From Ehretia macrophylla (taxonomy: Eukaryota; Streptophyta; Magnoliopsida; Boraginales; Ehretiaceae): a DNA stretch of 64,000 nt. The position numbers and the translations under genes are program-made. The stretch is taken from NCBI GenBank assembly GCA_037974665.1, contig CM075765.1:61735247-61799246 (forward strand). Reading direction: 5' to 3'. A model generated the notes under the pieces. The model worked only from the letters and a program-made list of their open reading frames with translations. It had not been told where the DNA came from and did no database searches. Below are positions 8,062-55,867 of this stretch, one piece after another. Every line of letters begins with the position of its first letter. Position 1 is the stretch's first letter.

Positions 8062-10360
8062 TGTCACGCCCCGCCCTGACCCCGCAAAAGGCCAAGCCCG
8101 AACCCGACACACGAATGGAGTCTCATCTGTTCCGCGGACGACCCGAAAACCATAAGATCAACACAACACTTGCGAAAGCTATATAAACAATCATATCAAG
8201 CCAACTTTCTTCAAAACATACATCTTCTTATTATCCAACTTTGCAACCCAAAAATGATATGCATACTACACAATTATTTATGCCACTAAACCATTAGCTA
8301 TTAGCATGCATTTCTTCACTAGTCATCCGAGTATAAGTTTACAATTTTACAAACTTTAGACCATTACAACATAAGACCATTAAAGGTCTCAAAATAGGGA
8401 AATACATACAAGGCTACAAGCCTCAAAATTAAGCGTCCTTCACGCAATATACATAACAAACAAGGTTTGCACAAAACTGGTAACCAACCACCAGCAAAGC
8501 AGGGATGTGCTATCACGGAGACACCTCCACCTGCTCGTCCTCCTCTATTACCTCGAGAGGGTCTGCTTCAACTACTTCTGTAAAAACATGGTATAGAAAG
8601 GAATGAGCAAAAACTATTGCTCAGCGAGGGCAATTGGTCTCAAGGACGGAGATGAGAGGAGTATGCAATGCAATTAGCCAAACAATACATACAAATCATA
8701 TAAGTTACCTCCAAAGCCAACAATAAAGCAAGGCAAGTATTTAAAGCTGCAAACACTCAATTAAAGGATACGATACTCTTTTCACGAGCAACTATCAAAC
8801 ACGAATACGAAGACGACGCGCCGGCCCAAAACCACCTTATACCACCAGTTTGGAATACCCCGGAAGTATCCATCAACCTACGACCCAAATCTCCCTGGGA
8901 GGCAACCCAAGCGAGAAAGGGAATAGCAGCGGAGCTAGAGCAACCAACACTGGCAACCCAAGGCTACCCAGAGAGGCCCATCACTCACGCGCGAGACACT
9001 ATGCAATGCAAGACTCGATACAAGACGATAAACAAGCGATAAACAAGCGATAAAGCCACACGTGGGAGAATAACAAAGTAGGTTACTCTCGCACGCAATA
9101 GCAGCAATTTGATAAGCAATTCAATCCAAAACAACTCAAACAAGTAATTCAAGTAATTCTAAGCATTCTATAAGCATAAAGACAAGTAAACACACAAAAA
9201 CACAAATCGGCCCCAACTATCAAATTGCTACCATTTCCAAACGAGCCACGAGTTCTGGAAACCGACTTCGCCAACCCTCCTAGGTCACCATAAGGCACGT
9301 CTAAAGACCCTGAAACCTTACTTTACCCTAGAACTCGCGCAAAGCCCCGATTTCCCCCTTTCTCGTTTGAACTACAACTACAACAACCAAACACCCAACC
9401 AATGCCATAATCGCACCAAAAGTGCTTCCATGGCTTCCCGAAGCAATGCCAGCACGCAAAACAAGAAAACGCCAAAGTTGACCTAAACGACCCCGACTTT
9501 CCCAAAGGCTTAATTCTCATTTTTTCCTCTACGCAACCCAAACAAACCACACATTTTAGCATTCTAGCATACCTAGCATGTTTCTACATCAACGGAAAGC
9601 ATAACAGCGCAACTTCAACGTTTCAAGGTTTTACTATTCATAAAACACTATTCATTTCACAATTTAATTTGCAATCTCAACATTTAACTGCAGAAAATAT
9701 TACAAAGCTATAAATACATGTTCTACAAATGCCAAGGAACATTCTAGAAGCATCAAATCGCTTTAAATGACGATCTACGGATAAATCTAAAAATTGACAA
9801 AGTTAACAAACACAACGTATAAATGTGCAAATAACATGCTTCCCTCACCTTAGGTACTCCTAGTCGCTAGGAAAACAACGTTGGTTGCCTTGGAAACCAC
9901 CCCGCACGAGCTCTCGCGAAGATTGATCGATTAGAAGTTGAAAGGTTTTTTTTTTTGCCTCTCTAAAGCTCTCGGCCTGCTCTCCTTTTTTTTCAGCTGC
10001 TATCTCTTTTATTTTGCTTGTTTTAGCTTATTAAAAGGTAATAGATTGGTCAAAGTTGGTCAAGCCTTGGTCAATATAGCTTAAGTTCGTCAATTGACTT
10101 GTTTTTATGCATTTTAAAGCCATAACAACTAAGGAAAAATTAATTATAGCTAACAACAATTAAAATATAAAATTTAAGTCATCTAAATACTAGTTTCACT
10201 ATTTGCTGAGGACTAGAAATCGTTATCTAGCTATCGCTCCTTAATTGCAATGCACGTTGCGTCAACGAGAAAGTAATAGTTAATTCACAAAGCATTTAAG
10301 GAAATATAATTTTCAAAATAATAAACAAAGAATTTTCACATTCCGGGCTCGGGTATTACA
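8062..10360 (-). repeat. 5' LTR of A1
   Basis: 2299 bp, nearly identical to 828-3121 with scattered substitutions and a few small indels. HP1 is at 8853-8871 and HP2 at 8604-8623. The target duplication actat follows at 10361-10365. Confidence 0.93.
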
Positions 10361-15189: not shown

Positions 15190-16045
15190 CTTAGCTTGAT
15201 GATGTTCATAGCTCTAAATATACAAGATCCTTCATTAGGTTCATTACGTGACGAATTCTTGCTTGATCGTATGTGTAAGCACAATATTGAAACCCTATTG
15301 GCTATGCATGCTTGTTAAGTGACTATCGTATGGTTAAATGAATTCATTTGAGTTGTTAGTAGGCTGTCCAATAATCTCTAAGTATGCTTGAATTGGTTTA
15401 AGTGATTTTCGTGGTTTTTAGCCAACTAAACCTATACCCGAGCGTGGTCCTTGTAAACCCTAATTGCTATGTAGACTCCCAAGTCATAAACCACCCTTGT
15501 GTGACTTATAATTGAGGTTGAGGAATGTTAATGGGCTGCCCGGAATTGTCTTTATAGCTATAAGCATGATTCTTGATGATTGCATGTTAATAAGTTAACT
15601 ATTTATGCACCCGGTCTTTGGTAAAATATCGTAGCATGCTCGTATGATCTCCACACTTGATATGTGAACCAAATGAGTTATATGATGTATTTGTAAGGTG
15701 TTACTTGGCTGCCCGTTAAATGTTCATATGCTTCTAAGTGTTTTACAAAGTGAATTTACATGTCAAAGCATGCTTCGTATGTTTACTTGTCGATATGTGA
15801 TCATACGTGTATCCGGAGGAAACTTACTTTGTTGACCTCCTAATATGAATTGTTAAAAGATATTCTATGGCTTATTTTGAATATGATTACTTGGCTGCCC
15901 GTGAAAGTTTAATTTCTTTCAAATTGATATATGAAATGATTATATGTTCTTACAATGCCTTATGTGCCAATATGTCAAAATGTGATCTTATACTTGCTTG
16001 GAGGCAACCTACTTTGTTGACCTCCTAATTTGAAATGTTAAATGA
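15190..16045 (+). repeat. Degenerate tandem repeat, about 170-186 bp, four to five copies
   Basis: The marker GGCTG(C/T)CC recurs at 15362, 15534, 15707 and 15893 (spacings 172, 173, 186). The marker AAACCCTA(A/T)TGGCTATG-like recurs near 15290 and 15456. The last two units share ACTTTGTTGACCTCCTAAT. Copies are well diverged. Confidence 0.75.
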
Positions 16046-16192
16046 CATAAATATGCATTGCATACAAGGTTGCAACCTTTCATTGTGGCATGGTAGCGAT
16101 TCACGAACCCCGGGCGGCATAGGACTTGTCGGTGCTCTCGTGACTACCATGGTCCAATTTCCTTTCTCGCTTGGCATTCCACCCTAGGAGAG

Positions 16193-16494: not shown

Positions 16495-16512
16495 TGAGTT
16501 CATAAGGACTCA
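16495..16512 (+). other. Hairpin HP2 in LTR X
   Basis: TGAGTTC / GGACTCA pair over seven positions (one G-T wobble) around the loop ATAA. It lies 19 bases before an AG|G site. It has the same outer frame (TGRG...CTCA) as HP2 in the other LTR families but different inner pairs. Confidence 0.75.
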
Positions 16513-16530: not shown

Positions 16531-16593
16531 GGTGAAGCAGATTTGGAACAGGTACCCGAGGAGAATGTGCTTGTTGATGAATTCTTGGAGTGA
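16531..16593 (+). other. Acidic tail after acceptor-like site, LTR X
   Basis: Reading with the G of the AG site as codon position 1 gives a 20-residue open tail: GEADLEQVPEENVLVDEFLE then stop. It has nine acidic residues and no basic one. It resembles the tails at the same place in A and C. No initiation codon or upstream exon is known, so this is a candidate terminal exon only. Confidence 0.4.
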
Positions 16594-17574: not shown

Positions 17575-20500
17575 TGTGATACCCCTAACTCGGCATGCAT
17601 TTAATGGCATTTAACTGCATTTAATTAAATGTTTAATTAGTTAATCATCCATTTTTGCACTATCTTGATTTTTATTTTAATAGTATTCAAATAATTTTTA
17701 TATTGAATAACTTAAAAGATTATTTCCTATTCCTATTATTTATAGTAATTGGATTTATTTTCTTGTATTTGATTAAGTGTCATATTAAATGTTAGTATTT
17801 AATTGTATTTGATTACGTGTTCTTATTAACTTGTTTATTCATATCTTAGCATTATTTTCAGATTCTTTAAAATATTCTATAAATAGTTAAATTATTTATT
17901 TTTAGATGAATATTGATTATTTTAATAATCGATTTTAATTTTCTTGCATTTAATTACTCGGTTTTTAATTAAATGAAAAAGTAGCTTCGAGCCCGGAGTG
18001 AATTTTGAACTATGTTACTTTTCAAAAATTATATTTTTCTTATATTCCATAATATTTGGGTGTTATTCATTCTTCGTCATTTTGTGCATAGCATATCGAG
18101 AGCGATAGTTAGGAAATGATTTCTAGTCCTCAGCAAATAGTGAAAGCCAGTATTTAGTGTTTTAATTTTAGTATTTTAGTTGTTGTTAACTAGAATTAAA
18201 GTTGTATTAGTTGTTTTAGCTTTAAAATGCAAGAAATAAGCTACTTTGACCAACTTAAGTGAACTTTGACCAAGACTTTGACCATTTGACTTGTTGTCAT
18301 CTTTTTAAATAGCATGAAATAGAAAACAAAACAAATAAAAGCTGAAAAAAAGATGGGAGGCCAAAAATACGAGGGAAAAAGAAAAAAAAAAGATTTCAAC
18401 TTCAAATCTTCAAATCTTCGTGAGAGCTTGCACGGGGTTGTTTCTGAGGCATCCAACGTGGTTTTTCTAGCATCTAGTAGCGTCTAAGTTGAGGGTTTCA
18501 TCATTATTTGTGCATTTGAAATTATTATGGCTAAACTTTAATTTTTGAAAATTATGCGTAGATCGTTATTTTATCCATTTCGGTGCTCGAAGAATGTTCC
18601 TTGACAATTGTAGAACATGTATTTGTAGCTTTTTAGCATTTTCTATGGTCAAATATAGCAATTGCGATTTAAAATGCAAATGGAATATTAAAATATGAAT
18701 AGTAAACCCCTGTTTTGTAAAAGTTGCTATGTTATGCATTCTGTTGAAGTAAAAAGATGCTAGGTACGTTAGAATGCTAAAATGTATGGTTTAATTGGAT
18801 TATGTAATGGAAAAATGGAGAAAAATGGCTTGGTACATGTTGGGGTCGTTGCGGTCGAGTTTGGCATTTTATCGGTTTGCGGGAAGGCATTGTCGTAGTA
18901 TGCCATGAAAACACTTTTGGTGCAGTTATGACATTGGTTGAGTGATTAGTTGACGTAGCTGTAGTTCAAACAAGCAAAGGGGAAAATCGGGGCTTTGCGG
19001 GAATTCTAGGGTAAAGTAGGGTTTCGCGGCCTTTAGACGTGCCTTATGGTAACCTAGGAGGAATGGTGAAGTCGGTTTTCAAAACTCGTAACTCGTTTGG
19101 AAGTAGTAGCATTGAGAAAGTTGGGGTCATTTAGTGTTTTAGTTGATTTTTATAATGCTTGCTTATATAATGCTTATTGTGGATCATTATGCTCGTTATA
19201 CTTGATTATGATTGAATTGTATATCAATTGTTGATAATGCTTGTTAGTGTTGTTCTTGTTATTTTATTGATTGTAAATGCTTATTGTATCACTTGTTGAT
19301 ACTAACCTGCACTTCAGTGCCTTGCTCTATTATCGTTATATTCTTCGTATTGCATTGCATTGTGTCAGGCGCGTGAGTGACGGGCCTTTCTGGGTAGTCT
19401 CGGGCTGCTAGGATTGGTTGCTCTAGCTCCGTGTCCTATTCCCGTTCTCACAAGAGTTGCCACCCAGGGAGTTTTAGGTTGTAGAATTGACAGAGTATGT
19501 CCGTAGTACTCTGACGGAAGTTATAAGGGGGGTGAGTCGGCGCGTCATCGTTAAAGTCATCGAAATTATGATCGGTACATTACTCATTCGAGTGAACCGT
19601 AGGCTTCAAAGTGTGGTATAGCTTTGAATGGTTGTGTTAATGCTTTCTTTAATTGTTTATTGTATTGTCGTTTACATTGAATGCTTTCTTATTGATTATA
19701 TTGCTTAACTGTACCTATTTGCATTGCACAACTTTCTTTCTCTCCACCTCGATATCTGTTTCGCCCTCATTGAGTATACGTGTAAAACCTGAGCCCGGAA
19801 TGTGCAATTTTCTTGTTTATTATTCTAAAAATTATATTTTCTTAAGTTCTTTGAAATCAAATTGTTGCTTCTTTATTGTCGCAAAGTGCATTGCATTTTG
19901 AGAGAGATAGTTAGATGGTGTTTTCTAGTCCTCAACTAATAGTGAAAACTAGTATTTTGGTGTCTTAAATTTTCTATTTTACTTGTTGTTAACTAGAATT
20001 AATTTGGTGTTGGGTATTTTAGCTTTTAAATGCATGAAAATATGCTAAATTGACCAAATTAAGTTAGGTTGACCAAGTGCCTTGACCTTTGACCAAGCAA
20101 GTCATCTTTTAATAGTTATAACTTAGCAAAATAAAATAAAAAACAAGCACAAACAGAAAAACCTGCTGGCCGAAACATAGAGAGAAAAAAAAAGATTTTC
20201 AAATCTTCAAAACTTCAAATCTTCGCGTGAGCTCATGCGGGGTTGGTTCCGAGGCATCCAGCGTTGTTTTCCTAGCGACTAGGAGTGCCTAAGGTGAGGG
20301 AAGCACGTTATTTGTGCATTTGAATATCATGTATGTCTACTTTTTGATTTTTGGGTTTTATCCGTAGTTTGTTGTTTTAATCGTTTTGATGCTTAAAGAA
20401 TGTTCCTTGACAATTGTAGAACGTGTATTTATACCTTTTTAACATTTTCTGCGGTTAAATCTTGAGATTATAATTCAAATTGTTAGTTGAATAGTAAACT

Positions 20501-23487
20501 ATGAATAGTAAAACCTCATTTCGATAAAGTTGCGCTGTTATGCTTTCTGTTGATGTGAAAAGGTGCTAGGTATGCTAGAATGCCTAAATGCATGGTTTGT
20601 TTAGGTTGCATAATGGAAAAACTGAGAAAAATGCATTGGTGAAAGTCAGGGTCGTTTAGGTAGAGTTTAGCATTTTCTCATTTTGCGTGATGGCATTGTC
20701 TCGGGAGGCCATGGAAGCACTTTTGGTGCAGTCGTGGTGTTGGTTGGGTGTTTGGTTAGAATAGTTGTAGTTCAAACGAGCAAGGGGGAAATCGGGGCTT
20801 TGCGTGATTTCTAGGGTAAAGTAGGGTTTCAGGGTCTTTAGACGTGCCTTATGGTGACCTAGGAGGATTGGTGAAGTCAGTTTCTAGAACTCATGGCTCA
20901 TTTGGAAATAGTAGCATTTTGATAGTTGGGGTCGATTTGTGATTTTGCTTGTTTCCTTAATGTTATGCATATAGAATGTTTAATATGCTTGTTAGAGTTG
21001 ATTTTGATTGAAATGCTTATTCAACTATTGCTATTGTGACACCCCGAACCCAGCACTTCACTAATTGCATTCATTAAATTGTTAACTTAGATATAAAGCT
21101 AATTACTTTATTTTTTTATATTTTCATAAATTCAAATATTTCTTTTCATGTATTTTATATTTTTATAAAATACTACATATTTTTAGGGGACTATAGCTCC
21201 TAACTGTGCGTGCATTGCATATCGGGATCAACGGGAAAAAATTCGCGAAACGTCTGATGAATAGTACCAGCGAGGTTTTTTCAGATTTTTCAGATTTTTG
21301 GCATTTTATTTTGCTGAAATTTAATCACCCAAATGACCCATTTACCCTTACTAAAATACCCTATTTGCTTGACCTACCCTTTGACCATCTTATGAGAATA
21401 TTAAAAGCCAAGAAACAAAAAAAAAAGGGGTAAAAAAAAATGGCCAAAAAAGAGTTACGGGAATAGTAACTTCTCAAAAAAAAAAATTACTCCTTGCTTC
21501 ATTCTTGCTTCCATTGCTTCCCAAATTGGTTGTGCTTCATCCTTAGGACCTTAAGACCATTCTTTGATCTTCAAAAGAGGTGAGGGTGCATTATATTTTT
21601 GTATTAAATTCAATTAAAGTTTGTATTATTATTTTTGTGATCTAATATTGTAGTGGTTTAATTCTTGTTCCGTTGATTCTTATATGCTCTAATAACTTCA
21701 TAGAATATGTTTGATGGTTTAAAATGCTTGTTGAATGCTTGAAAATTAAAATGGCACTTGGGGAAGATGATGAATAGTGCTAAACTAGGGTTTCCAAAAA
21801 AAGTTACAATTTAATTCGATTCGAGGCTTCTAGTAGTTGTTAATTAGGTCCATAAGCGTGAGAAAAATGTTAATTGCACTTGCTATGTTCAAAATTTGAG
21901 AAATTTGATCAAAATAGGCTACTTTAATAAGGGGTTTTGGGTTTAACTTGAATCTGGGCACGTTTCGAGGTTATGGCTAGTCTTTATTAAGTATTGAAAC
22001 CTTAGAAGTGCTTTCGTTTCGCTTGTTTGGGTTCCGAAATTGGTACTTGTAGTGTAAACCCACAAAGAGGCATTTTTGGTGTTTTCGTGTACTTGTGCTC
22101 TAGGTTATGATTTGGAGGTTTTAAATGAGGTATTTAGGTATCCTTAGATTGGTAGGATGGTTAGCTAGCTTAACTTGATCATTGAATTCCGATAGGAAGC
22201 TAAATAGCCTAGTTGAACAAAGGGGAAATGAATGAATTAATTGCTTTAGTACTTGTATTGCTTTGTAGTTGCTCCTAGCGAGTCTAAATGCTATTCTAAG
22301 GTATGTGTGAGCTTTCGGTTAAGTTTTGTGAAAAGTATAATATTGACCCCTTTGTGTTCGCATAGTTAATCTCATGATAATTGATTTATAATTGAGTAAT
22401 TAAATGTTTATATGCATTTGTGTAGTGTACGTATTATAGTAGTGAAGTCTCGTGAATTAAGTTGCTTGGTTTACATGGATTTGGTTGAGTATGAATTTAG
22501 AATGGACTAAAGGAACTAGTAATGAACTATGGTAATAATTGTTGTTAGTTGATTCTTGATTGATTGGATAAATATTTAAATGTACTTATGTAACAAGTTC
22601 ATCTATTCGGAGAAGTTGTGAGTTAAGTTATATCGATACTAGTTAAAGATTGAGTAAACATGTTTATATTTCTTATTAATTGCATTATATGTGTAAAGAT
22701 ACGCTTATATAACTTATTGGTTAGATGTTATATAGTATTTCTACTTATATGAATGGCTATGTATATGTTATTTATTATGCTATTGTCTTTGTCTAATACT
22801 TGAAAATTAAAGAATGTTGCATATGTGATCACTTGAGTTTATGTATTGTTCAAAAATTGATTAGAGTGATTGTTAAACCATGAAATATATTGTTAGTTAT
22901 GTGAATTAAAGGGAATCAAATAGAGTTGGATAAATTAATGGCTTTATGAACTAGCTTTAGTTGAGAATAAGAAATCACTTCTTATGCATATAGTTGATTG
23001 TATTAGGTAGTGATAATTGAAGGGAATTGATGCTTTCGGAGAATATTGAGGGAATCTTGGCTTAATTCGCGCAGGTTTGGCTTCCTAAAAGGTGAGGGAT
23101 CATTTCTATGTGCATTCTATGTGTCTCATCTTGTTATATGCTAAATATTCGATACTAAGTGATTTAAGTGTTTTAGTTGGATTAGTTTAACAATTATAGA
23201 CTAATGAATGTATCATATTTCATCGTATGGCGTGATTGATGTGTGTGCTCGAGGACAACCTCTTTTGTTGTCCTCCTTGTTTGCATATCGGCTTATTTTG
23301 TTATATTGTTATTATTATTGCTTCCTGTGCTATCGAGTCAAGGGTTGCGCAACCTTATCGTCGGGGCGGATGCGATGGGCCTCTCTGGGCGGCAGCGGGC
23401 TTGCCAGGGTTGGTTGCTCTAGCTCCGTACCCTATTCCCTCACTCGCCTGGTCCGGAGATTGCCAGGGGGTGTTGGGTCGTAGGATT

Positions 23488-23506
23488 GGGTACATCCGGA
23501 GTACCC
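23488..23506 (+). other. Hairpin HP1 in LTR C
   Basis: GGGTAC/GTACCC, six perfect pairs around the 7-base loop ATCCGGA with the palindrome TCCGGA. It is preceded by TTGGGTCGTAGGATT. The minus-strand C copy near 50757-50775 keeps the loop but only four inner pairs. Confidence 0.75.
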
Positions 23507-23723
23507 TTTGGTGTTTGGGATGCCGGCTTATCGTGATCGTGATCGTGGTTCGTGGATCGTGAATGAAGACCAGCGAAGATTGGTGTATAAGGGTTATGTG
23601 AAATGTATCCTTTTAAATGTGTGGTTATTTAAGCTATCATTGTTTCTTTAATTGTCTAATTGTTATTGTTGTTTAACTGTATTACCTGTTGCATTGCACG
23701 GCCCGGGAGACTATATCCCTCAC

Positions 23724-23743
23724 TGGGCAACAGTGGTTGCTCA
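23724..23743 (+). other. Hairpin HP2 in LTR C
   Basis: TGGGCAAC/GTTGCTCA, eight pairs (one G-T) around AGTG. The second C copy on the minus strand (50518-50537) has the same stem. An AG|G site follows 20 bases later. Confidence 0.78.
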
Positions 23744-23762
23744 TACCTCGATATATGTTTCA

Positions 23763-23840
23763 GGAAATGCTGAGGGTGGTCCCCAGCTAATTGAGGTGCT
23801 AGTGGAAAAGGAAGAAGTTCAGGCTGAGCCTTTGCCCTAG
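23763..23840 (+). other. Acidic tail after acceptor-like site, LTR C
   Basis: After ATATGTTTCAG the phase used in A, X and D is open for 25 residues to a TAG. It starts GNAEGGPQ, is Glu-rich (EVLVEKEEVQAEPLP) and ends at the stop. Candidate 3' exon; no transcript evidence. Confidence 0.4.
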
Positions 23841-24631
23841 TTGTTATGTGTTTGTTGTCTAAGGTGGATTTGTCTTCTTGTTGTTACATGGTGTACTTCT
23901 ATTGCTATAGCATGATCTATTTTGTGGCCTTAAGGCTATGTATATTCTTGTAGTTGCAAGTTGAAAGTTGTTAGTTGTAATGTTAGCTTTGAGATATTAT
24001 GGCTTGTAAGAACTTTTAATTCTCCTTTTAGTTCTTGCATGCTTGGGTATGTATGTTTAGAGGTGTTGATTTCAACTTCTAAAATTGCTCTAATGTTATC
24101 ATAGAATGGCATGTTAAAAAGGTTTAAATAAAAGTTAAGTTGGGTGCATGCATGTGTGATTTGGAGCTGTTGTTTGTCTCCTGGCTTGGATGGCCTAGAA
24201 CCTTTGAATTTTAATTATAAAAGCTTGTTTTAGTATATTGTGGCTATTTTAAGCATTTACATGTTTGAAAAATGTCCGCGGTACAGAGGAAACTCTATCC
24301 GTTTTTCCCTAAAATTTTGTGACCGGGTTTGGTATTGGGTTGAGAATAGCATGGTTATTAGAGCCTCCGGTCTCGTGAGGGATCGGGGCGTCACAGCTAT
24401 TGCGTGCGAGAGTAACCTACTTTGTTATTCTCTCACATGTGGCTTTATTGCTCGATTGCTCGATTGCTCGATTGTTGCATTGTATATTGTATTGCATTCA
24501 TAGAGTCAGGGGCGGAGTGATGGGCCTCTCTGGGTAGCCTTGGGTTGCCAGTGTTGGTTGCCCTAGCTTCGTGTCCTATTCCCTTTCTCGCTTGGGTTGC
24601 CTCCCAGGGAGATTTGGGTCGTAGAATTGAT

Positions 24632-24650
24632 GGATACTTCCGGGGTATTC
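24632..24650 (+). other. Hairpin HP1 in LTR A
   Basis: GGATAC/GTATTC, six pairs including one G-T wobble, around TTCCGGG. Same in A1 LTRs (1617-1635, 8853-8871, minus strand), the solo A at 60380-60398 and B2 (37982-38000). The loop hexamer TCCGGG is self-complementary if terminal G-U pairs are allowed. Confidence 0.75.
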
Positions 24651-24880
24651 CAAACTGAAGTTATAAGGTGGTTTGGGCCGGCGCGTCGTCATCGAATTCG
24701 TGATTCAAAGTTGCTTGTGGAAAGAGTATCATATCCTTTGAATGAGTGTTTATAGTTTTAATGCTTGTCTTGTTTTATTGTTGGCTTTGCTTGTATCTCT
24801 ATATGATATTTGTAAGAATTGTTTGACTAATTGTACTGCATACTCCTCTCATCTCCGTACTTGAGACCAATTGCCCTCGC

Positions 24881-24900
24881 TGAGCAATAGTTTTTGCTCA
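24881..24900 (+). other. Hairpin HP2 in LTR A
   Basis: TGAGCAA/TTGCTCA, seven perfect pairs around TAGTTT. The same hairpin is at 1369-1388, 8604-8623 and 60131-60150 on the minus strand. The loop bases vary slightly between copies while the stem does not. Confidence 0.78.
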
Positions 24901-24924
24901 TTCCTTTCTATACTATATTTTACA

Positions 24925-24990
24925 GGAGTAGTTGAAGCAGACCCTATTGAGGTAATTGAGGAGGAAGAGCAAGTGGAGGTGTTTCCTTGA
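24925..24990 (+). other. Acidic tail after acceptor-like site, LTR A
   Basis: TATTTTACAG|G is followed by a 21-residue open tail starting GVVEADP, with IEVIEEEEQVEVFP, then TGA. The A1 LTRs encode the same tail with single substitutions. Nine Glu and one Asp with no basic residue. Confidence 0.42.
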
Positions 24991-25992
24991 TAGCACTTTC
25001 TTTGCTTAGCTGGTGGTTGGTTGCCAGACTTTTGTGCGGGCCATGCTTGATGTGTATAATGCTTGGTTGACGCTTTATTTTGAGGCTTGTAGCCTTGTAT
25101 ATAGTTTCTATTTTGAGGCCTAAATGGTCTTATGTTGTAAAAGTTGGAAGGATGTAAAGTTGTAATGGTATACACATGTGACTAGTAAGGAATGCATGCT
25201 AATAGCTAACTGTTTAGTGGCATAAATAATTGTGTAGTATGCATGACATTTTTGGGTTGAAAAGTTGTTAATGAAAAGATGTATGTTTTCTAAAAGAATG
25301 TTGGCTTGTATCAAATGAATGTTGTGGTTTCTCGAATATTATATTGAATGTAGGGTTTCGGAACATCCACGGTACAGGGGAGACTCTGTCCGTGTGTTGG
25401 GTCCGGGCTTGGCCTTTTCGGGGTCGGGTTGGGGCGTGACAATACGTGTTGAGTATACTCACTCCTCACCACCATATTTCAGGAAATGCCGTGTTAGCTG
25501 GAAAGTTCGTGGTTACATGAAAGATCGTGATTGAAGAGTTGTCTTGCGTGTTATGTGGCTGAGTTGTAGAAAGATGCAAAGATGTATGTTTTCATGTATT
25601 TTATGTATTTAGTGTTAAAGGATATGTAATTAACTTAACTAGGTTTATTAGAATGGTATGATAGTTTATTTTATGCGATAGGTTAGTATAGTTTAATTGC
25701 CAAGCATGAATGTCTTGTCAAAGATGAGAAGAGATAGGTTAGCTTTTAAACTGGAAATGTATATTTACTTGTGTTTGCTTGTTGAGAACCAAGGCTCGGA
25801 TGGCCTTGAGGTGTTTGTATGTTTGGACACGGTGCTGGTCTACTTATATGCTATTGCAGGTTTTGCATTTTGCCTAGAAACAGGGGAGACTCCATCCGTT
25901 TTCCCTAAAAATTTTGCCCAGGTTTGGAATTAGGTTGTGATTAGATTGATTGATAGAACTCCCGTTCTCGAGAGGGATCGGGGTGTTACAGG

Positions 25993-27805: not shown

Positions 27806-30543
27806 TGTGATACTCCAAACCCGGCATGCATTTAATAGCATTTGACTGCATTTAATTAAGTGTTTAATTAGTTAATCATCAATTTTTGCACTATTTTGAT
27901 ATTTCTTTTAAAAGCATTCAATAATTTTTATATTGATTAATTAAAAGATTATTACCTATTTCTATTATTTATAGTAATTAGATTTATTTTCTTGTATTTG
28001 ATTAAGTGTCATCTTAAATGTTAGTATTTGATTACGTGTTTATATTAACTTGTTTATTCGTATCTTAGCATTAACTTCATAATTCTTTAAAATATTATAG
28101 AAATAGTTAAATTATTTATTTTTAAATGAATATTGATTATTTTGATTATTTTAATAATCGGTTTTAATTTTCTTGCATTTAATTACTCGGTTTTTAATTA
28201 AATGAAAAAGTAGCTTCGAGCCCGGAGTGAATTTTGAACTATGTTACTTTTCAAAAATTATATTTTTTTTCTATTCCATAATATTTAGGTGTTATTCGTT
28301 CTTCGTCATTTTGTGCATAGCATATCGAGAGCGATAGTTAGGAAATGATTTCTAGTCCTCAGCAAATAGTGAAAACCAGTATTTAGTGTTTTAATTTTAG
28401 TATTTTAGTTGTTGTTAACTATAATTAAATTTGTATTAGTTGATTTAGCCTTAAAATGCAAGAAATAAGCTACTTTGACCAACTTAAGTGAACTTTGACC
28501 AAGACTTTGACCATTTGACTTGTTGTCATCTTTTTAAATAGCATGAAATAGAAAACAAAACAAATAAAAGCTGAAAAAAAGATGGGAGGCCAAAAATACA
28601 AGGGAAAAAGAAAAAAAAGATTTCAACTTCAAATCTTTAAATCTTCGCGAGAACTTGCACGGGGTTGTTTTCGGGGCTTCCAACGCTGTTTTCCTAGCAT
28701 CTAAGTTGAGGGTTTCATCGTTATTTGTGCATTTGAAATTATTATGTCTAAACTTTAATTTTTGGAAATTATGCATAGATCGTTATTTTATCCGTTTTGA
28801 TACTTGAAGAATGTTCCTTGACAATTGTAGATTATGTATTTGTAGCTTTTTAGCCTTTTATACGGTCAAATATAGCAATTGCAATTTAAAATGCGAATGG
28901 AATAGTAAAATGTGAATAGTAAATCCCTGTTTCGTAAAAGTTGCTCTGTTTTGCATTCTGTTGATGTAGAAAGATGCTAGATATGTTAGAATGCTTAAAT
29001 GTATGGTTTAATTGGATTATGTAATGAAAAACGGAGAAAAATGGCTTGGTACATGTTAGGGTCGTTCCGGTCGAGTTTGGCATTTTATCGTTTTGCGTGA
29101 AGGCATTGTCGTAGTATGCCATGGAAGTACTTTTGGTGCAGTTATGACATTGGTTGAGTGATCGGTTGAGGTAGCTATGGTTCAAACAAGCAAAGGGAAA
29201 AATCGGGGCTTTACAAGAATTCTAGGGTAAAGTAGGATTTCGCGGCCTTTAGACGTGTCTTATGGTGACCTAGGAGGAATGGTGAAGTCGGTTTCCAAAA
29301 CTCGTAGCTCGTTTGGAAGTAGTAGCATTTAGAAAGTTGGGGTCATTTAGTGTTTTAGTTGATTTTTATAATGCTTGCTTATATAATGCTTATTGTGGAT
29401 TATTATGCTCATTATACTTGATTATGATTGAATTGTATATCAATTGTTGATAATGCTTGTTAGTGTTGTTCTTGTTATTTTATTGATTGTAAATGCTTAT
29501 TGTATCGCATGTTGTTACTAACCTACACTTCAGTGCCTTGCTCGATTATCGTTATATTCTCTGTATTGCATTGCATTGCGTCAGGCGCGTGAGTCACGAG
29601 CCTCTCTGGGTAGTCTCGGGCTGCCAGGGTTGGTTGCTCTAGCTCCGTGTCCTATTCCCGTTCTCACTTGGGTTGCCGCCCAGGGAGTTTTGGGTCGTAG
29701 AATTGACAGAGTATGTCCGGAGTACTTTAACGGAAGTTATAAGGTGGGTGAGCCGGCGCGTCATCGTTAGAGTCATCGAAATCATGATCGGTATATTACT
29801 CGTTCGAGTGAACTGTAGCCTTCAAAGTATGGTATAACTTTGAATGGTTGTGTTAGTGCTTTCTTTAATTGTTTATTGCATTGTCGTTTACATTGAATGC
29901 TTTCTTATTGATTATATTGCTTAACTGTACCTATTTGCATTGCACGACTTTCTTTCTCTCCACCTCGATATCTATTTCGCCCTCACTGAGTATACTTGTT
30001 GAGTATACTCACTCCTGACCACCACATTTCAGGAAATGCCATGTTAGCTGGAAAGTTCGTGGTTACGCGAAAGATCATGATTGAAGAGTTATCTTGCGTG
30101 TTATGTGGCTGAGTTGTAGAAAGATGCAAAGATGTATGTTTTCATGTATTGTATGTATTTAGTGTTAAAGGATATGTAATTAACTTAACTAGGTTTATTA
30201 GAATGGTATGATAGTTTATTTTATGCGATAGGTTAGTATAGTTTAATTGCCAAGCTTGAATGTACTTGTCAAAGATGAGAAGAGATATGTTAGCTTTTAA
30301 ACTGGAAATGTATATTTACTTGTGTTCGCTTGTTGAGAACCAAGGCTCAGATGGCCTTGAGGTGTTTGTATAGTTGGACACAGTGCTGGTCCACTTATAT
30401 GCTATTGCAAGTTTTTACATTTTGCCTAGAAACAGGGGAGACTCCTTTCGTCTTTCCCTAAATTTTATGCCCTGGTTTGGAATTGGGTTGTGATTAGATT
30501 GATTGATAGAACTTCCGGTCTCGAGAGGGATCGGGGTGTTACA
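27806..30543 (+). repeat. 3' LTR of B1 (2738 bp)
   Basis: Starts TGTGATACTCCAAACCC and ends GGGGTGTTACA. It is intact, with HP1 at 29708-29728 (AGAGTAT/GTACTTT, loop GTCCGGA) and HP2 at 29987-30011 (TGAGTATAC/GTATACTCA, nine perfect pairs). It differs from the left LTR at scattered sites and by small indels. Confidence 0.92.
29987..30011 (+). other. Hairpin HP2 in LTR B
   Basis: TGAGTATAC/GTATACTCA around TTGTTGA. The B2 copies at 38281-38305 and 42932-42956 keep the whole stem with loop GTGTTGT. An AG|G site follows 21 bases later. In this family the tail frame is not clearly conserved between B1 and B2. Confidence 0.8.
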
Positions 30544-31630: not shown

Positions 31631-31955
31631 GATTCTACCAAGGGAATTTTGTAAAATTCATTTTGGATTGTACAAGAAAGGAATTCCATTTGTGTATGTG
31701 CAGCCCCAAAACCTATGGTACTCTATTCCATTACACGGATCGGGAACGATTGAAAAACCAGACCCGTATTTCTTGGAATACTAAAATAGAAAATGTTACC
31801 AATAGTTGTACTAATCCACCCGCATATGTCTTTCTTTCTCCTACCAAAAGGAAAAAAAATGAAATAAAGATCCCCTTTCTTTGGGAATGAAATTCTGCCC
31901 CTGGCCCCCTTTCGTAAAATGGGCGAGATGAATTGATGCATTTATTGGATCCATT
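31631..31955. other. Plastid-derived spacer before trnD
   Basis: AT-rich spacer on the psbM side of trnD, where the plastid segment begins. A 75-codon frame at 31663-31890 is not a known plastid gene. psbM itself is not seen. Confidence 0.55.
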
Positions 31956-32028
31956 GGGACTGATGGGGCTCGAACCCGCAGTTTCCGCCTTGATAGGCCG
32001 GTGCTTTGACCAATTGAACTACAATCCC
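31956..32028 (-). tRNA. trnD-GUC: Plastid-derived trnD copy, anticodon changed
   Basis: 73 bases matching plastid tRNA-Asp, with the T-loop GGTTCGAGCC and acceptor GGGATTG intact. The anticodon reads ATC where GTC is normal (G-to-A seen on the other strand). A nuclear relic, not expected to function. Confidence 0.9.
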
Positions 32029-32133
32029 AGAGAAATCCTATCTAGCAGAAAATTTGATTCTTTTTTATCTCCGTATCAGATATTTCTGAAGGACAAGGGG
32101 GTTATAGCACCTCATTGTAGATTGGCGAATTAT

Positions 32134-32217
32134 TGGGTCGAGCAGGATTTGAACCAGCGTAGACATATTGCCAACAAATTTACGGTCCATCCCCATTAAC
32201 CGCTCGGGCATCGACCC
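32134..32217 (-). tRNA. trnY-GUA: Plastid-derived trnY copy
   Basis: 84 bases, class II length, anticodon GTA in GACCGTAAATT. Several substitutions, including in the T-arm. It is in the normal plastid place between trnD and trnE. Confidence 0.92.
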
Positions 32218-32276
32218 AGGAAGAAGAAATTTTAGGCTTATTGGTAATCCATGATCAACTTCCTTTCGTAGTACCC

Positions 32277-32349
32277 TACCCCCAGGGGAAGTCGAATCGT
32301 CGCTGCCTCCTTGAAAGAGAGATGTCTTGAACCACTAGACGATGGAGGC
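32277..32349 (-). tRNA. trnE-UUC: Plastid-derived trnE copy
   Basis: 73 bases, anticodon TTC in CTTTCAAGG. The acceptor and T-arm carry changes (GCAGCGACGATTC where GGGGATTC is usual). In plastids this tRNA also feeds haem synthesis; this relic should not. Confidence 0.9.
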
Positions 32350-33081
32350 CTACTTATCCAACCGCGATCATACTATAATCATAGTATGAACAGTTTTTTG
32401 AAATTGTCAATATAAAGGAATGGTATGATTAAATCCAATGGATCTTTTCATTTCTCATAATTGTATAGAATTTTTTGATTCATCATTTATATTCTTGAAT
32501 CATTCATTACAACCGCCATTATCATTCTATATAGAAATATATATTATTTTCTAAAAAAATAATAAATACAAAAAATAGAAATCATACGCAGGATAGGATT
32601 TTTTAAGGGAATGGTTGGTCTGCCAGAAAAGAAAAAGCTTTTTTAAAGATATTCTTATCTCACACTAAGATAGGAAATTAACAAATGATAAATCTAGTAA
32701 GCGAGATCAAGAAGTTATTGAAAATGGTTTAATTTAGTTCGGGGAACAAGTAGAATCTCTTATCACACGATTCGATGAAATATCTTGAAATTTATGTCGA
32801 ATTGGTAGGTGCACATGTATTAATCAAGTGAATTTTGTTCTAATGGGGATCAATTCAATATCAATAAAAGAAAAGCAATTAGGGTTAGTCTTGAACCAAT
32901 TCATTACATTTGATTTTACTCTAGGCTTGTTTCTAGGTAAATATATTTTTTATTCAAGAATGGACCGCCAGCCACTATGAGTCTACTGTATGTACATATG
33001 GATATATACTTATGTATATAATATATGTACATATAGATCTTTTTTCCACACAGTGACTACTTCAGGAATTAAATCAAATAG
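32350..33081. other. Plastid-derived trnE-trnT spacer
   Basis: AT-rich, non-coding, with short A and T runs, as in the plastid spacer. Nothing else is seen. Confidence 0.75.
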
Positions 33082-33153
33082 GCCCTTTTAACTCTGTGAT
33101 AGAGTAACGCCATGGTAAGGAGTAAGTCATCAGTTCAAATCCGATAAGGGGCT
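33082..33153 (+). tRNA. trnT-GGU: Plastid-derived trnT copy
   Basis: 72 bases with anticodon GGT (GCCATGGTAAGG) and the T-loop GTTCAAATC. A few substitutions in the D- and T-arms. Confidence 0.93.
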
Positions 33154-34482
33154 TTGGTTTTTCATAAAACTCCAGGCGTAGTATTCATATTTGAAGGGAG
33201 AATAGATATATTATTAATATTTGTAATAAAATAAAAAAGTAACTAACTGGATAATACGTTATCATTATACTGAGTTATAGTATAGTAGTTATAAAGTTGA
33301 ATATTTGTTCAATAAATTTGAATTATTATGAATAATGTTAAGTTTCCTCTTGAATCAGCAAATATTCTTATTTTCCATTATCCCAATCAATCTATTGTAA
33401 AGATTAGAAATCAACAAAAGAAAAAGTAAGTAGACCTGACCTATTGAATCATCACTATATCAGCTATTCTGATATTAAAATTCGATAGAGATGAAATTCG
33501 AATAGTTGACCCCCTTTTTTTAATTTCATTTCTTTGGACTCCGCAAGAATTGTCGATATTTCTGATTAAATCTTCTTGTTCCTAGATTTTCTATAGGACA
33601 AAATTGTTATTTCGTTCCTCCACAGAGAAACGTTTCTTACAAGCCAAAACAAAAAAATCATTTCCACTATCTTTCTTTGATTTTTGATTACAGATCAAGA
33701 TGAATTTTTATCTATGTAAGTATATGTATATCTCTCAGATAGTGGCTTCATGTACCAACAAAGATTTCTAAATCGCTGCAGACGAGATTTTTGTTCCAAG
33801 AGTGGGATGCAAGAAAAAGACTTTCATTTCCAGTCTCATATTTTATTTATTTTAGTGAATTTAAGGAAAAAATAGTAAATTCTCTCTTTTTCTAACAAAT
33901 AAAAATAAATAGAAAAATATTCTATTCAAAGTGTCTTTTTTGGCTTCGACCTGCAGAAAGATATACTATAGAGTTTTAGAGTTATCTAAAGGAAATAGAG
34001 ATATAATAAAGAAGACACTAAAAGAAAATGAAAAAATAAATTAATAAATTTTTTTAATAATTTAGTATCCATAGAAATTAGAAGAATCTATAAATAGCTT
34101 TATGGTTCTCAATCTCATGAACAAGATCTAACAATAACATTTCTTAATAGAACAGGGGGGATAGGTATGAGGATCAGTTGTTAGTAAAAGGGGGGATCGC
34201 TTGTTCCTTGAACAGTTCTTTCCAAAGATTCATCTATCTTGAGTCATAAAAAGACAATTCATGGTTCAAATGCTTAGTCAAAAGAAAGGAATAATCAAAT
34301 TGACTTCATGGATTTACCTAGGCCAGTTTATGGACCACTAAATAATTTTTATCTTCGAAACCCATTGGAAGGGGCAGTGCAAGAGAAATCAAATAGAAAT
34401 GATCGAATCTTTATCTTCGGATGCCCTGAAAATGCTATGAGGTGCTCAAAAATGGTCAAAGTAGTTGAATAGGAGGATCACT
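33154..34482. other. Plastid-derived trnT-psbD spacer
   Basis: Long AT-rich spacer, the usual length class for angiosperms. It includes a recognisable psbD promoter relic (33421-33510). An AGGAGGATC ribosome site lies before psbD at about 34471. Confidence 0.75.
33421..33510 (+). promoter_or_regulatory. Relic of the psbD light-responsive promoter
   Basis: AAGTAAGTAGACCTGACC followed by ATTGAATCATC and CAGCTATTCTGATATTA resembles the conserved AAG box, PGT box and -10 region of the plastid psbD blue-light promoter, recalled from known plastid sequences. It has several substitutions. Confidence 0.65.
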
Positions 34483-35539
<1,057 letters not shown>

Positions 35540-36052
35540 TGGAACTTTAGCTTTAGCTGGCCGTGCCCAAGAAACCATCGGTTTCGCTTGGTGGGCCGAG
35601 AATGCCCAACTTATCAATTTATCTGGTAAACTACTAGGGGCTCATGTAGCCCATGTTGGATTAATCATATTCTGGGCCGGAGCAATGAAGCTATTTGAAG
35701 TGGCTCATTTCATACCAGAGAAGCCTATGTATGAACAAGGATTAATTTTATTTCCCCACCTAGCTACTCTAGGTTGGGGGTAGGTCCTGGGGGGGAAGTT
35801 ATAGACACTTTTCCATACTTTGTATCTGGAGTACTTCATTTAATTTACTCCGCAGTATTAGGCTTTGGTGGTATTTATCATGCACTTCTGGGACCTGAAA
35901 CGCTTGAAGAATCTTTTCCATTCTTTGGTTATATGTGGAAAGATAGAAATAAAATGACCACAATTTTAGGTATTCACTTAATCTTGTTAGGTCTAGGTGT
36001 TATTCTTCGAGTATTCAAGGCTCTTTATTTTAGGGGCGTATATGATACCTGG

Positions 36053-38848
36053 TGTGATAACCCGAACCCGCCATGCATTTAATAGCACTTGATTGCATTT
36101 GATTAAATGTTTAATTAGTTAAATCAACCAATTTGCACTATTTTAATATTTCTCTTGGAAGCATTTAGTAGTTGTGTATTGAATAATTAAAAGATTATTA
36201 CCTATTTCTAATAATTATAGTAATTGAAATTCTTTTCTTGTGATTAATTAAGTGTTATCTTAAATGTTAGTGTTTAATTGTATTTGACTACGTGTTATAT
36301 TAACTTTCATTTGTATCTTAATATTGACTTCATAATTCTTTAAAATGTTCTAGAAATGGTTAAATTAATTAATTTAGATGAATATTGATTACCTTGATTG
36401 TTGTGATTATTTTTAATAATCGGTTTTGGTTGTCTTGCATTAAAATCACTCCGTTTTCAAATAAAAGATGAAAGTAACTCCGAGCCGGAGTAAATTTTAA
36501 ACTATGATACTTTCCAAAAATGATATATTTCTTAGATTCTTTGAGATCTAATTGTCACTTCTTTGTTGACGCAAAGTGCATAGCATATCGAGAGCGATAG
36601 GTAGAGAACGGTTTCTAGTCCTCAACAAATAGTGAAAACTAGTGTTTGGTGTCTTAAATTTTATATTTTAATTGATGTTAGCTAGAATTAATATTTCATT
36701 AGTTGTTTTACCTTTAAAATGCATAAAATAAGGCAATTTGACCAACTTAAGCTATTTTGACTAAGGCTTGACCATTTGACCAAAGGTTTGTCACCTTAAA
36801 TAAGCTAAAACAATGCAAAATATAAAAAAATAAAAGCTGAAAACAGAAACTAGCTAGGGCCGAAAATGGTAGGAGAGGAAAAAGAAAATTTTAACTTCAA
36901 TTCTTCGATTCTTCGCGTGAGCTTGCACGGGGTGGTTTTTGAGGCATCCTAGGAGGTTTTCCTTGCGTCTAGAAGTGTCAAAGGTGAGGGTTTCATCGTT
37001 ATTTGCGCATTTGAAAGTTTTATGCTTTAACTTTAATTTTTGGGTTTTATCCGTAGAATGTTATTTTGATCATTTTGAGGTTTATAGAATATTCTCTAGC
37101 AATCGTAGAACATGTCTTTATAGCTTTTTAACATTTTCTGTTGTTGAATATTGAAATTGAAATATAATTTGTTAATTAAATAGTAAAACATAAATAGTAA
37201 ACCCTTGAAATGATAAAGTTGCGCTGTTATGCTGTCTGTTGATGTGAAAAGGTGCTAGGTATGCTAAAATTTCTAAATGCATGATTTGTTTAGGTTGCGT
37301 AATGAAAAAAATGAGAAATATGCCTCGGTGAAAGTCGGGGTTGTTTAGGTCGAGTTTAGCGTTTTCTCATTTTGCGTGTTGGCATTGTTTCGGAAGGCCA
37401 TGGAAGCACTTTTGGTGCGATTATGGCATTTGTTGGGTGTTTCGTTAGTATAGTTGTAGTTCAAACGAGCAAAGGGAAAAATCGGGGCTTTGCGCGAATT
37501 CTAGGGTAAAGTAGGGTTTCGGGATCCTTAGACGTGCCTTATGGTGACCTAGGAGGATTGTCGAAGTCCGTTTCCAGAACTCGTGGCTCGTTTGGAAATG
37601 GTAGTGTTTTGATAGTTGGGGCAAATTTGGGATTTTGCTTGTTATCTTGATATTATGCCTATAGAATGCTTAGGGTTGCTTGATATACTTGTTTAATTGG
37701 TGTTATTGTTGCTTATTATTGCTTGTTATGCTTGAAAAGTTAGTTGAATGTTAGTATTGATTGTGATTGCTTGTTATCTCGTTTGTTGTCACTAGTTTGT
37801 ATTGTTGTGCTATCGCTCATTTATTGCCTTGTATCGAGTCTTGCATTGCATAGTGTCTCGCGCGTGAGTAATGGGCCTCTCTGGGTAGCCTCGGGTTGCC
37901 AGTGTTGGTTGCTCTAGCTCCGCTGCTATTCCCTTTTCTCGCTTGGGTTGCCTCCCAGGGAGATTTGGGTCGTAGATTGATGGATACTTCCGGGGTATTC
38001 CAAACTGGTGTTATAAGGTGGATGCGCGCTTATTGTCATCGTTGTCAACATCAAGCTCGAGATTGATGTATCGCTCGTGTAATGGTACATTGCTCGTATG
38101 AGTGAACCATAGCCTTCAAAGTGTGGTATAGCTTTGAATGGTTGTGTTAATGCTTTCAGTAATTGCTTATTGTTTTGATTGTTTGTTTTGATTGCTTAGT
38201 TATCAGTTATATTGCTTAACTGTCTTATTTGCATTGCACGACTTTCTTTCTCTCCAATTCGATATCTGTCTCGCCCTCACTGAGTATACGTGTTGTGTAT
38301 ACTCACTCCTCACCACCACATTTCAGGAAATGCCATGTTAGCTGGAAAGTTCGTGATTTCGTGAAAGTCCGTGCTTGAAGAGTTGTCCTGCGTGCCTATG
38401 TGACTTGAGTTGTCAAAGTTGTAAAGTTGTATGCTTTTATGTATTATATGTATTTAATGTTAAAAGGGATGTAATTTAAGTTTCATTAGATTATGCATTT
38501 AGTTAATGTAGCTTAACTTCAATGTATATTTGTAATGACAAAGGAAAAAAGATAAAAAAGTATGATAGTCTAGCTTATGAAATAGGTTGGTGTAGTTTAA
38601 TTGCTAAGCTTGAATGTATATTTACTTGTGATTTGCTTGTTGTGAACCAAGGCTCGGATGGCCTTGAGGTGGTTGAATGTTTGGACATGGTATTGGTCCA
38701 CTTATATGCTATCGCAGGTTTTACATTTCGCCTAGAAACAGGGGAGACTCCGTCCGTTTTCCCTGAAAATTATGCCCGGGTTTTGGTTTGGGTTGTGAAT
38801 AGATTGATTGTTAGAACTCCCGGTCTCGAGAGGGATCGGGGTGTTACA
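36053..38848 (+). repeat. 5' LTR of B2
   Basis: Starts TGTGATAACCCGAACCCG and ends GGGGTGTTACA. HP1 at 37982-38000 and HP2 at 38281-38305. The first 29 bases extend the psbC frame by chance. Confidence 0.93.
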
Positions 38849-38850
38849 GG

Positions 38851-38862
38851 TGGTATCAGAGC
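38851..38862 (+). other. Primer binding site of B2
   Basis: TGGTATCAGAGC, two bases after the LTR, matching initiator-Met tRNA use as in A and D. Confidence 0.88.
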
Positions 38863-40690: not shown

Positions 40691-40707
40691 TTTTAAAGGG
40701 GGAAGGA
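40691..40707 (+). other. Polypurine tract of B2
   Basis: TTTTAAAGGGGGAAGGA lies directly before the 3' LTR. Confidence 0.87.
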
Positions 40708-43500: not shown

Positions 43501-44272
43501 CCTGGGCTCCGGGAGGGGGGGATGTAAGAAAAATTACCAACTTAACCCTTAGCCCAAATATTATATTTTGTTATTTACTAAGATATAATTGGAGGAAATG
43601 TATGGTTAGGTTCCATTTGTATACTTGGTGGAATCTGGCATATTTTAAGCAAACCCTTTGCATGGACTTGACGCGCATTTGTATGGTCTAGAGAGGCTTA
43701 CTTATCTTATAGTTTAGGGGCTTTAGCCGTGTTTGGTTTCATTGCTTGCTGTTTTGTCTGGTTCAATAATACCGCTTGTCCTAGTGACTTTTATGGACCC
43801 ACTGGACTAGAAGCTTCTCAAGCTCAAGTATTTACATTTCTAGTTAGAAACCAACACCTTGGGGCTAACGTGGGATCCACTCAAGGACCTACTGGCATAG
43901 GTAAATATCTAATGTGTTCCCCGACTGGAGAAGTCATTTTTGGAGGAGAAACTATGCATTTTTGGGATCTGCATGCTCCTTGGTTAGAACCTCTAAAGGG
44001 TCCAAATGGGTTGAACATGAGTAGGTTGAAAAAAGATATACAACCTTGGCAAGAACGGCGTTCCACAGAATGTATGACTCATGCTCCTTTAGGTTCTTTA
44101 AATTATGTGGGTGGCGTAGCTACCGAGATCAATGCAGTTAATTATGTCTCTCCTAGAAGTTGCTTGGCTACCTCTCATTTTGTTCTAGGATTCTTCTTCT
44201 TCGTAGGTCACGTTTGAAAAAAGAATTGATCGTGATTTTGAACATGTTCTTTCCATGACCCCTCTTAATTGA
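43501..44272 (+). pseudogene. psbC: Plastid-derived psbC (CP43), 3' part
   Basis: Resumes with the TSD cctgg and [10 protein letters not shown]. About 50 bases are missing near 43571-43575, between the codons for a YLL stretch and those for DIIGG. A TGA follows in FAWT, then VCGFIACC-like sequence is open from 43729 to FVGH at about 44213. There about 40 bases are gone, before FEK and the normal end SMTPLN and TGA at 44270-44272. Missense changes are frequent (R to H, C and Q). Together with 35487-36052 it is one decayed copy. Confidence 0.94.
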
Positions 44273-45440: not shown

Positions 45441-45463
45441 TGTAAGCATGCAATAATAGAGAG

Positions 45464-55861: not shown

Positions 55862-55867
55862 CTTAAA

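Follow-up and report, generated by a model that had tools for sequence, protein, structure and literature searches.

A covarying RNA hairpin beside an acceptor-like site in LTRs of chromovirus-type retrotransposons of Ehretia macrophylla: a candidate structured splice acceptor

What keeps a short hairpin in place in retrotransposon long terminal repeats (LTRs) whose sequences have otherwise diverged? The question is raised by a 64,000-nt stretch of Ehretia macrophylla DNA (assembly GCA_037974665.1, contig CM075765.1, positions 61,735,247 to 61,799,246 of the forward strand; hereafter, "the window"). In this window, a sequence-only reading had picked out an inverted repeat, HP2, in five LTR families, and had named splicing control, 3′ end formation, packaging, and the start of reverse transcription as its possible roles.

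LTR retrotransposons of the window

Self-comparison of the window shows densely nested LTR retrotransposons. The following LTRs were delimited from their ends in this comparison:

828-3121 and 8062-10360, minus strand: LTR pair of element A
44926-47315 and 55867-58245, minus strand: LTR pair of element D
36053-38849 and 40708-43500, plus strand: LTR pair B2/B3
17575-19780 and 25442-25990: flanks of the B4 LTR around an inserted block (19781-25441), with target duplication ATACG

The self-comparison also yielded the LTR copies A3, A4, B1, B4, C+, and C−. LTR E, around 16495, is a single copy, and its LTR status comes from motifs in common with the other families. The sequence TGGTATCAGAG, which we take to be a tRNA-matching primer site, immediately follows the LTR end in A2, D2, and B2. 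Paired LTRs with a tRNA-type primer site just 3′ of the LTR mark these elements as LTR retrotransposons, and the presence of such a site after three LTRs does not fit the self-primed class (Tf1/Sushi type), in which a leader hairpin serves as primer for reverse transcription. Because the internal region of element A encodes, in Pfam order, RVP_2, RVT_1, RNase H, Integrase_H2C2, and a Tf2-1-like SH3 domain, we assign the element to Ty3/gypsy retrotransposons of the chromovirus kind. Pfam reported no chromodomain at E 0.001 in the two C-terminal proteins; a stretch of 12 residues resembles one. The long LTRs and the domain order suggest that the clade is Tekay/Del, a group that makes up much of the DNA of many plants.

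In the B2/B3 element, only ~1.9 kb (38850-40707) separates the LTRs, without a match to the proteins of A or D; the element is therefore probably non-autonomous, although its hairpin is among the longest. Nesting reaches three layers, in that an A-type LTR lies inside the hairpin of the B4 LTR and is itself split by a C-type LTR. Matches to tRNA and IsrR occur in 31955-36052, 43498-44590, and 58731-59065, and a photosynthetic reaction-center frame (Pfam Photo_RC) is found at 34591-35313; the three stretches probably derive from an organelle genome and were inserted into nuclear DNA. Because IsrR matches (35936-36052 and 43498-43575) adjoin the ends of both the B2 and B3 LTRs, the B2/B3 element probably lies inside an organelle insert.

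The HP2 hairpin and the covariation of its arms

All 12 places at which HP2 had been reported carry the arms described for them, and in every case the hairpin is oriented in the sense direction of its LTR. They belong to the LTR copies A1 to A4, B1 to B3, C+, C−, D1, D2, and E; the family earlier called X, at 16495, is E, and the copy at 24881 is A4, an A-type LTR. A 13th HP2, overlooked earlier, is split between two places in the B4 LTR:

23724-23743, plus strand: HP2 of C+, TGGGCAAC/GTTGCTCA, loop AGTG; present in the minimum free energy (MFE) fold
1369-1388, minus strand: HP2 of A1, TGAGCAA/TTGCTCA
8604-8623, minus strand: HP2 of A2; first exon base at 8577
60131-60150, minus strand: HP2 of A3
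24881-24900, plus strand: HP2 of A4, in an A-type LTR
29987-30011, plus strand: HP2 of B1, TGAGTATAC/GTATACTCA, up to 11 pairs; first exon base at 30033
38281-38305, plus strand: HP2 of B2; first exon base at 38327
42932-42956, plus strand: HP2 of B3; first exon base at 42978
19771-19780, plus strand: 5′ portion of the HP2 of B4, cut by the inserted A4 LTR (target duplication ATACG)
25442-25461, plus strand: target duplication together with the 3′ portion of the HP2 of B4
50518-50537, minus strand: HP2 of C−; first exon base at 50496, exon frame shifted
45464-45485, minus strand: HP2 of D1, TGGGCTTAT/ATAAGCTCA
56405-56426, minus strand: HP2 of D2
16495-16512, plus strand: HP2 of E, TGAGTTC/GGACTCA, loop ATAA

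The 3′ foot of the hairpin, CTCA, is invariant, and TGRG forms the 5′ foot. The tenth position of the B4 stem is G/A, which does not pair; therefore, the T-A of B1 versus the G-U of B2/B3 at this pair is not a clean compensation. Self-comparison revealed no LTR copy that spans the site without HP2, although a single-copy family lacking HP2 would escape it; a C-type piece at 1-599 begins past the HP2 site. Among the nine Rfam matches in the window at gathering scores, none is at an HP2 site.

A search for the flanks only (CCTC..TG[AG]G ... CTCA[CT], inner bases free) found exactly the 12 listed places, all 12 with 7 to 11 pairs; this frame fixes the outer four pairs and was written after the copies had been seen. 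The same frame matched 11 times in 200 random windows, and not at all when pairing and a downstream [CT]AG were also demanded (12 in the real window). A loose frame with at least 7 pairs gave 20 matches in the real window versus 3.0 per random window (maximum 7, 60 windows), and these 20 are the 12 HP2 copies, 7 opposite-strand readings of the A and B hairpins, and 1 unrelated match at 53382.

For covariation, each distinct arm set (A, B, C, D, and E) contributed one row, and these five related rows, a small number, were compared with shuffles that do not remove the relatedness. Standard pairs fill 35 of 35 cells of the five arm sets (shuffled mean, 82%), and 7 cells have changes on both sides (shuffled mean, 2.7; reached in none of 500 shuffles). 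For the covariation score, the value of 0.67 compares with 0.28 in the shuffles and was likewise reached in none of the 500. Five measures were computed in all, and the two ordinary ones among them gave 3 pairs with a double change versus 2.1 in the shuffles (179 of 500 as high) and 6 further pair types versus 4.5 (98 of 500 as high). When the registers were slid by 1 to 3, 15 to 43% of cells paired. The earlier claim that the inner bases differ between families and still pair holds for three of the seven pairs, which change on both sides; three others are invariant and one varies on one side only, so the covariation is supported by three inner pairs. There are five families, as had been claimed, but only about four of them are independent for the inner pairs, because A and C have the same inner CAA/TTG. 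The chance of three inner pairs in four independent families is ~3e−5, calculated from composition only.

The third pair in C and D and the sixth in E are G-U, and hence are standard pairs only on the sense strand. When both strands were scanned, A and B passed on either strand; C, D, and E passed solely on the sense strand. These wobbles favor a sense RNA over a DNA cruciform and speak against repair by template switching. Selection on either a folded RNA or a DNA cruciform had been suggested; the covarying arms and the sense-strand wobbles point to the former, and the cruciform is disfavored.

HP2 is present in the MFE fold of all nine copies that were folded (with six pairs, not seven, in A4), the set comprising every copy but A2, B3, and D2. 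Fold energies of the nine range from z −0.37 to −3.71 relative to shuffles and are ordinary in most. Consensus folding of nine sequences recovered five HP2 pairs and a GC-rich domain, with the alignment too loose beyond these. The hairpin block has 95% identity between B1 and B2, where the mean is 76% and 1.1% of windows reach this level. It is less special between A1 and A3, with 92% identity where the mean is 78% (8.5% of windows reach this level). The identity of the A3 and B1 hairpin blocks, 0.55, is below the LTR average of 0.67, as expected if the arms changed while pairing was kept.

A second hairpin, with a CCTACTTTG loop, lies ~430 to 490 nt upstream of HP2:

16009 and 24417, plus strand: loop positions of the second hairpin
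1838, 9074, 45919, 50991, and 56849, minus strand: loop positions of the second hairpin

Across A, C−, D, and E, its arms vary in sequence yet remain paired, in some cases around a bulge, and a C to T difference between D1 and D2 preserves a G-U pair. The loop is altered in A3 and C+ (CCTATTTTG and CCTCTTTTG), and the hairpin was not found in the B copies. In LTR E, a ~165-nt tandem duplication at 15701-16048 (72% identity) includes this upstream hairpin. Between both hairpins lies the GC-rich domain (e.g., at 24500-24700), GGGCCTCTCTGGG ... GGGTTGCCAG ... TTGGGTCGTAG, which is conserved across A, B, and C and partly in E and D.

The acceptor-like site and the exon-like stretch

Every HP2 copy had been placed 19 to 25 bases before an AG|G site. 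An AG does lie near every copy, but the distance, measured from the hairpin foot to the end of the AG in the 12 copies, is 19 to 26 nt, and A2 has AG|A. We scored this AG with a plant acceptor matrix of approximate frequencies against all AGs of its LTR or excerpt. The stretch in C+ and the ranks of the sites are as follows:

23744-23763, plus strand: putative branch-to-acceptor stretch of C+, ending in TTTCAG; rank 2 of 83
Family A: A1, 1 of 132; A2, 4 of 134; A3, 1 of 130; A4, 1 of 54 (1,046-nt piece)
Family B: B1, 41 of 151; B2, 41 of 144; B3, 41 of 145
Family C: C+, 2 of 83 (1,601-nt excerpt); C−, 9 of 100 (1,643-nt excerpt)
Family D: D1, 2 of 116; D2, 4 of 119
Family E: 1 of 130 (2,600-nt excerpt)

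The site ranks first to fourth in 8 of the 12 LTR copies, which come from four of the five families. With a CTNAY 17 to 45 nt upstream as a further requirement, 8 of the 12 sites came first among the AGs; those of B1 to B3 and C− came fourth or fifth. An acceptor-like site with a branch-type motif and a pyrimidine tract, as expected of a spliced LTR element, is present, and the AG after HP2 is very probably a 3′ splice acceptor, as judged from its sequence context. The sequence CTCAY fits a plant branch site, and it is plausible that the invariant 3′ foot CTCAY, 19 to 26 nt upstream of the AG, is the branch site. A plant study of a CTCAY branch site was not among the matches listed in our literature search.

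Downstream of the AG, a short stretch followed by a stop is open in A, C+, D, and E:

23764-23840, plus strand: exon-like stretch of C+, phase 1, GNAEGGPQLIEVLVEKEEVQAEPLP and stop
1278-1342, minus strand: exon-like stretch of A1, GVVEADPLEVIEEEEQVEVFP and stop; acceptor rank 1 of 132
60041-60105, minus strand: exon-like stretch of A3, GVVEADPIEVVEEEEQVDVFP and stop; acceptor rank 1 of 130
24926-24990, plus strand: exon-like stretch of A4, GVVEADPIEVIEEEEQVEVFP and stop; acceptor rank 1 of 54
45348-45439, minus strand: exon-like stretch of D1, GVAKPDYGYVPPEKENVPFVDELYVPESYP and stop
56289-56380, minus strand: exon-like stretch of D2, GVAKPDYGYVPPVEKNVPFMDESYVPESYP and stop
16532-16593, plus strand: exon-like stretch of E, GEADLEQVPEENVLVDEFLE and stop

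Read in phase 1, for which an upstream exon must supply one base, A1, A3, and A4 give GVVEADPxEVxEEEEQVxVFP and a stop, and D1 and D2 give GVAKPDYGYVPP... and a stop. The peptides have 20 to 30 residues and no in-frame start codon of their own. We scanned the A1/A3 LTR alignment (79% identity) for codon-like constraint in gapless 66-nt windows with at least 7 differences. The top window is the post-AG stretch in the frame of the exon, where seven of nine differences fall at third positions (P = 0.008 for a single window, uncorrected). The best values in other comparisons (A3/A4, 0.12; A1/B2, 0.066; B1/B2, 0.088; A1/A2, 0.039) are not at the exon, and D1/D2 had no window with enough differences for the scan. 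A one-base length difference between hairpin and AG separates A1 from A3 and A4, and the exon frame is preserved across it.

Likeness between peptides of different families was matched by few shuffles for A/C (32 of 2,000 as good) and A/E (45 of 2,000). The other comparisons are no better than shuffles (D/E, 362; A/D, 560; C/D, 955; and C/E, 1,755 of 2,000). Likeness between C− and C+ is weak (146 of 2,000 as good) because C− is frame-shifted, and no conserved reading frame was found in the B copies. The plant poly(A)-type signal TTGTAA follows the AG at 155 to 240 nt in A, C+, and D and at 157 nt and further on in E; it is found at 112 and 147 nt in C− and at 92 nt in B2/B3 (in B2 also at 203 nt) and is absent in B1, all of these counts being without a chance control. 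A search of the LTRs for a TATA box revealed none common to the families. Unspliced read-through across the hairpin was also considered and rejected, as the hairpin of A1, B, and E starts with a TGA in frame; the one-base shift between hairpin and exon in A3/A4 also speaks against it.

Donor-like sites are present at the ends of the pol frames of D and A, in both cases just 5′ of the purine tract:

47351-47359, minus strand: donor-like CAA|GTAAGA at the D pol-frame end, phase 1, in register with the exon
3157-3165, minus strand: donor-like CAG|GTAAGA at the A pol-frame end, phase 0, out of register

The D site has the seventh-best score in the D internal region (nested insert included), and the A site has the second-best in the 4.9-kb A internal region. 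When the exon is joined to the pol-end donor, D stays open and A stops at once. A GTAAG is absent at the pol-end position in B1 and B3. Within the LTR, no upstream window of the A1/A3 comparison is as codon-like as the exon, and the open stretches before LTR donors are not common to all families. A3 and B1 have an open stretch, LRVL.PFSLGLPPRE.WVVEL, in the GC-rich domain before different GT sites, and the best codon-like A3/B1 window is located there, with a weak pattern in which third positions account for 8 of 13 differences (P = 0.035, uncorrected); A1 and A2 are open at this stretch in another frame. On these sequence features, we tentatively favor a donor outside the LTR, and the A3/B1 stretch may mark one within it.

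Possible roles of HP2

Among the four roles proposed earlier, splicing control fits best, given the strong acceptor and the codon-like constraint in A. The start of reverse transcription is a poor fit because in three elements the tRNA-type primer site follows the LTR end, far from the hairpin; packaging and 3′ end formation may be other roles of HP2. We suggest that HP2 gives structure to the acceptor of a terminal exon that lies within the 3′ LTR, and we regard this splicing reading, taken whole, as about equally apt to prove right or wrong. HP2 would be a hairpin of the sense RNA, formed directly at a 3′ splice acceptor in the LTR of chromovirus-type (Tekay/Del-like) elements, presumably in U3. 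The invariant CTCAY foot would hold the putative branch adenosine, and 19 to 26 nt, pyrimidine-rich in most families, would lead from the foot to the acceptor AG. Transcripts would pass through the 3′ LTR, where the acceptor would open a short terminal exon of 20 to 30 mostly acidic codons and a stop, followed by poly(A)-type signals; the upstream exon to which it would be spliced would end in phase 1. With the branch site paired into the foot of the stem, the acceptor may be held weak, so that a share of transcripts would be spliced to an mRNA with a short tail and the rest would stay unspliced as genomic RNA for packaging.

Several observations run against the splicing reading. The B copies rank 41st and have no conserved frame, yet have the longest hairpin; the pol-end donor of A gives an immediate stop; and the C− frame is shifted. 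That the B stem is kept though the reading frame is gone argues for some structural use beyond the exon, and for B one has to suppose either an acceptor with no coding exon behind it or a different RNA role. The same B copies, with the longest hairpin, a poor acceptor, and no frame, are what one would expect if HP2 were a functional sense-RNA hairpin unrelated to splicing, as part of a larger structured region for export, packaging, or translation of genomic RNA, with the acceptor incidental or ancestral. The other covarying hairpin and the conserved GC-rich domain upstream in the LTR also fit such a role. We nevertheless consider it unlikely, since the foot lies 19 to 26 nt from the acceptor in all 12 copies, the acceptor ranks first to fourth in copies of four of the five families, and the CTCA foot is invariant whereas the 5′ foot is TGRG.

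The pairing might also have arisen without selection on the structure. Reverse transcriptases switch templates, and such switching could perfect short inverted repeats, changing both arms of a functionless sequence; the arm changes do come in blocks, and the loops differ. However, this process should yield perfect complementarity, whereas C, D, and E have G-U on the sense strand, and it does not account for five different stems that share the CTCA foot and have a similar spacing to the AG, which makes it improbable. Somewhat less credible still is that the splice signals are real and the hairpin neutral, with CTCAY kept as a branch site and the inner pairing due to chance or inheritance. In its favor, independent families are few, and the outer four pairs do not test pairing because they hardly vary, but the three inner pairs in four independent families would then have to be a coincidence of the small probability given above (composition only). 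A DNA-level element (a cruciform, a protein site, or an integration target) would be consistent with the inverted repeat and with the insertion that B4 took inside its hairpin; G-U replaces Watson-Crick pairs on one strand only, however, and a single insertion was seen, and we find this explanation very hard to credit.

The splicing reading has partial parallels in known systems. In MMTV, the sag reading frame lies within the LTR U3 and is reached by splicing; HP2 would resemble it in having coding sequence inside the LTR, but unlike sag, the peptide of the HP2 exon has 20 to 30 residues and no in-frame start codon of its own. Abstract-level accounts of HIV-1 describe control of splice sites by RNA structure (PMC3236942, PMC3847799), and the likeness extends to an LTR element whose unspliced RNA must survive. 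HIV-1, however, is an animal lentivirus, with one abstract concerning the major donor, whereas HP2 would mark an acceptor inside the LTR of a plant element, as predicted from sequence only. According to passages of a 2025 review, plant LTR elements are generally without introns, with exceptions that include Ogre and EVADE (PMC12786077), and passages of a survey of plant LTR elements mention an intron for Ogre only (PMC6317226). As these passages describe it, partial splicing in Ogre, EVADE, and BARE separates genomic RNA from mRNA (PMC12786077, PMC6317226), as we propose here; the introns of Ogre and EVADE lie between or within gag-pol, while the putative HP2 acceptor and exon are in the LTR of a chromovirus-type element. 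Excerpts of the work on LTR-HMM modules tie residual LTR conservation to stem-loops, as in HP2, but its chromovirus model represents the Sushi group, mainly of zebrafish, and the words "Tekay" and "splic" are absent from those excerpts (PMC3601003). A term search of the Del-LTR paper gave no hit for hairpin, stem, splic, intron, palindrom, or transcription start (PMC4029996).

An LTR-borne splicing valve in plant gypsy elements was not described among the matches listed in the open-license literature, to which the search was confined, subscription papers being outside its scope. RNA structure at splice sites is already known from HIV-1, and the LTR-borne form would be new for plant gypsy elements, on the evidence of one window. 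Searches for relatives by protein (viral and genome contigs) and by two DNA patterns (viral contigs) returned none; three DNA-pattern loci in viral contigs match neither pol nor the window, and a protein search with the D pol end joined to the exon gave no match.

More generally, and more tentatively, a whole clade of plant chromoviruses may encode a terminal exon in its LTR through which a spliced product, perhaps the pol end, gains an acidic tail, and a covarying hairpin may meter the use of the exon by burying the branch site; from sequences of a single window, we rate this extension as rather doubtful. In the sunflower data as excerpted, Tekay/Del is the largest family, and spliced isoforms are reported for other elements (PMC7730604). 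The expressed set in those excerpts has no Tekay member, which is a practical hurdle (PMC7730604). If the proposal is true, the split between genome and message RNA in this clade would be directly testable from RNA reads, and every solo LTR would bring with it a ready acceptor and coding exon, which nearby host genes could take up.
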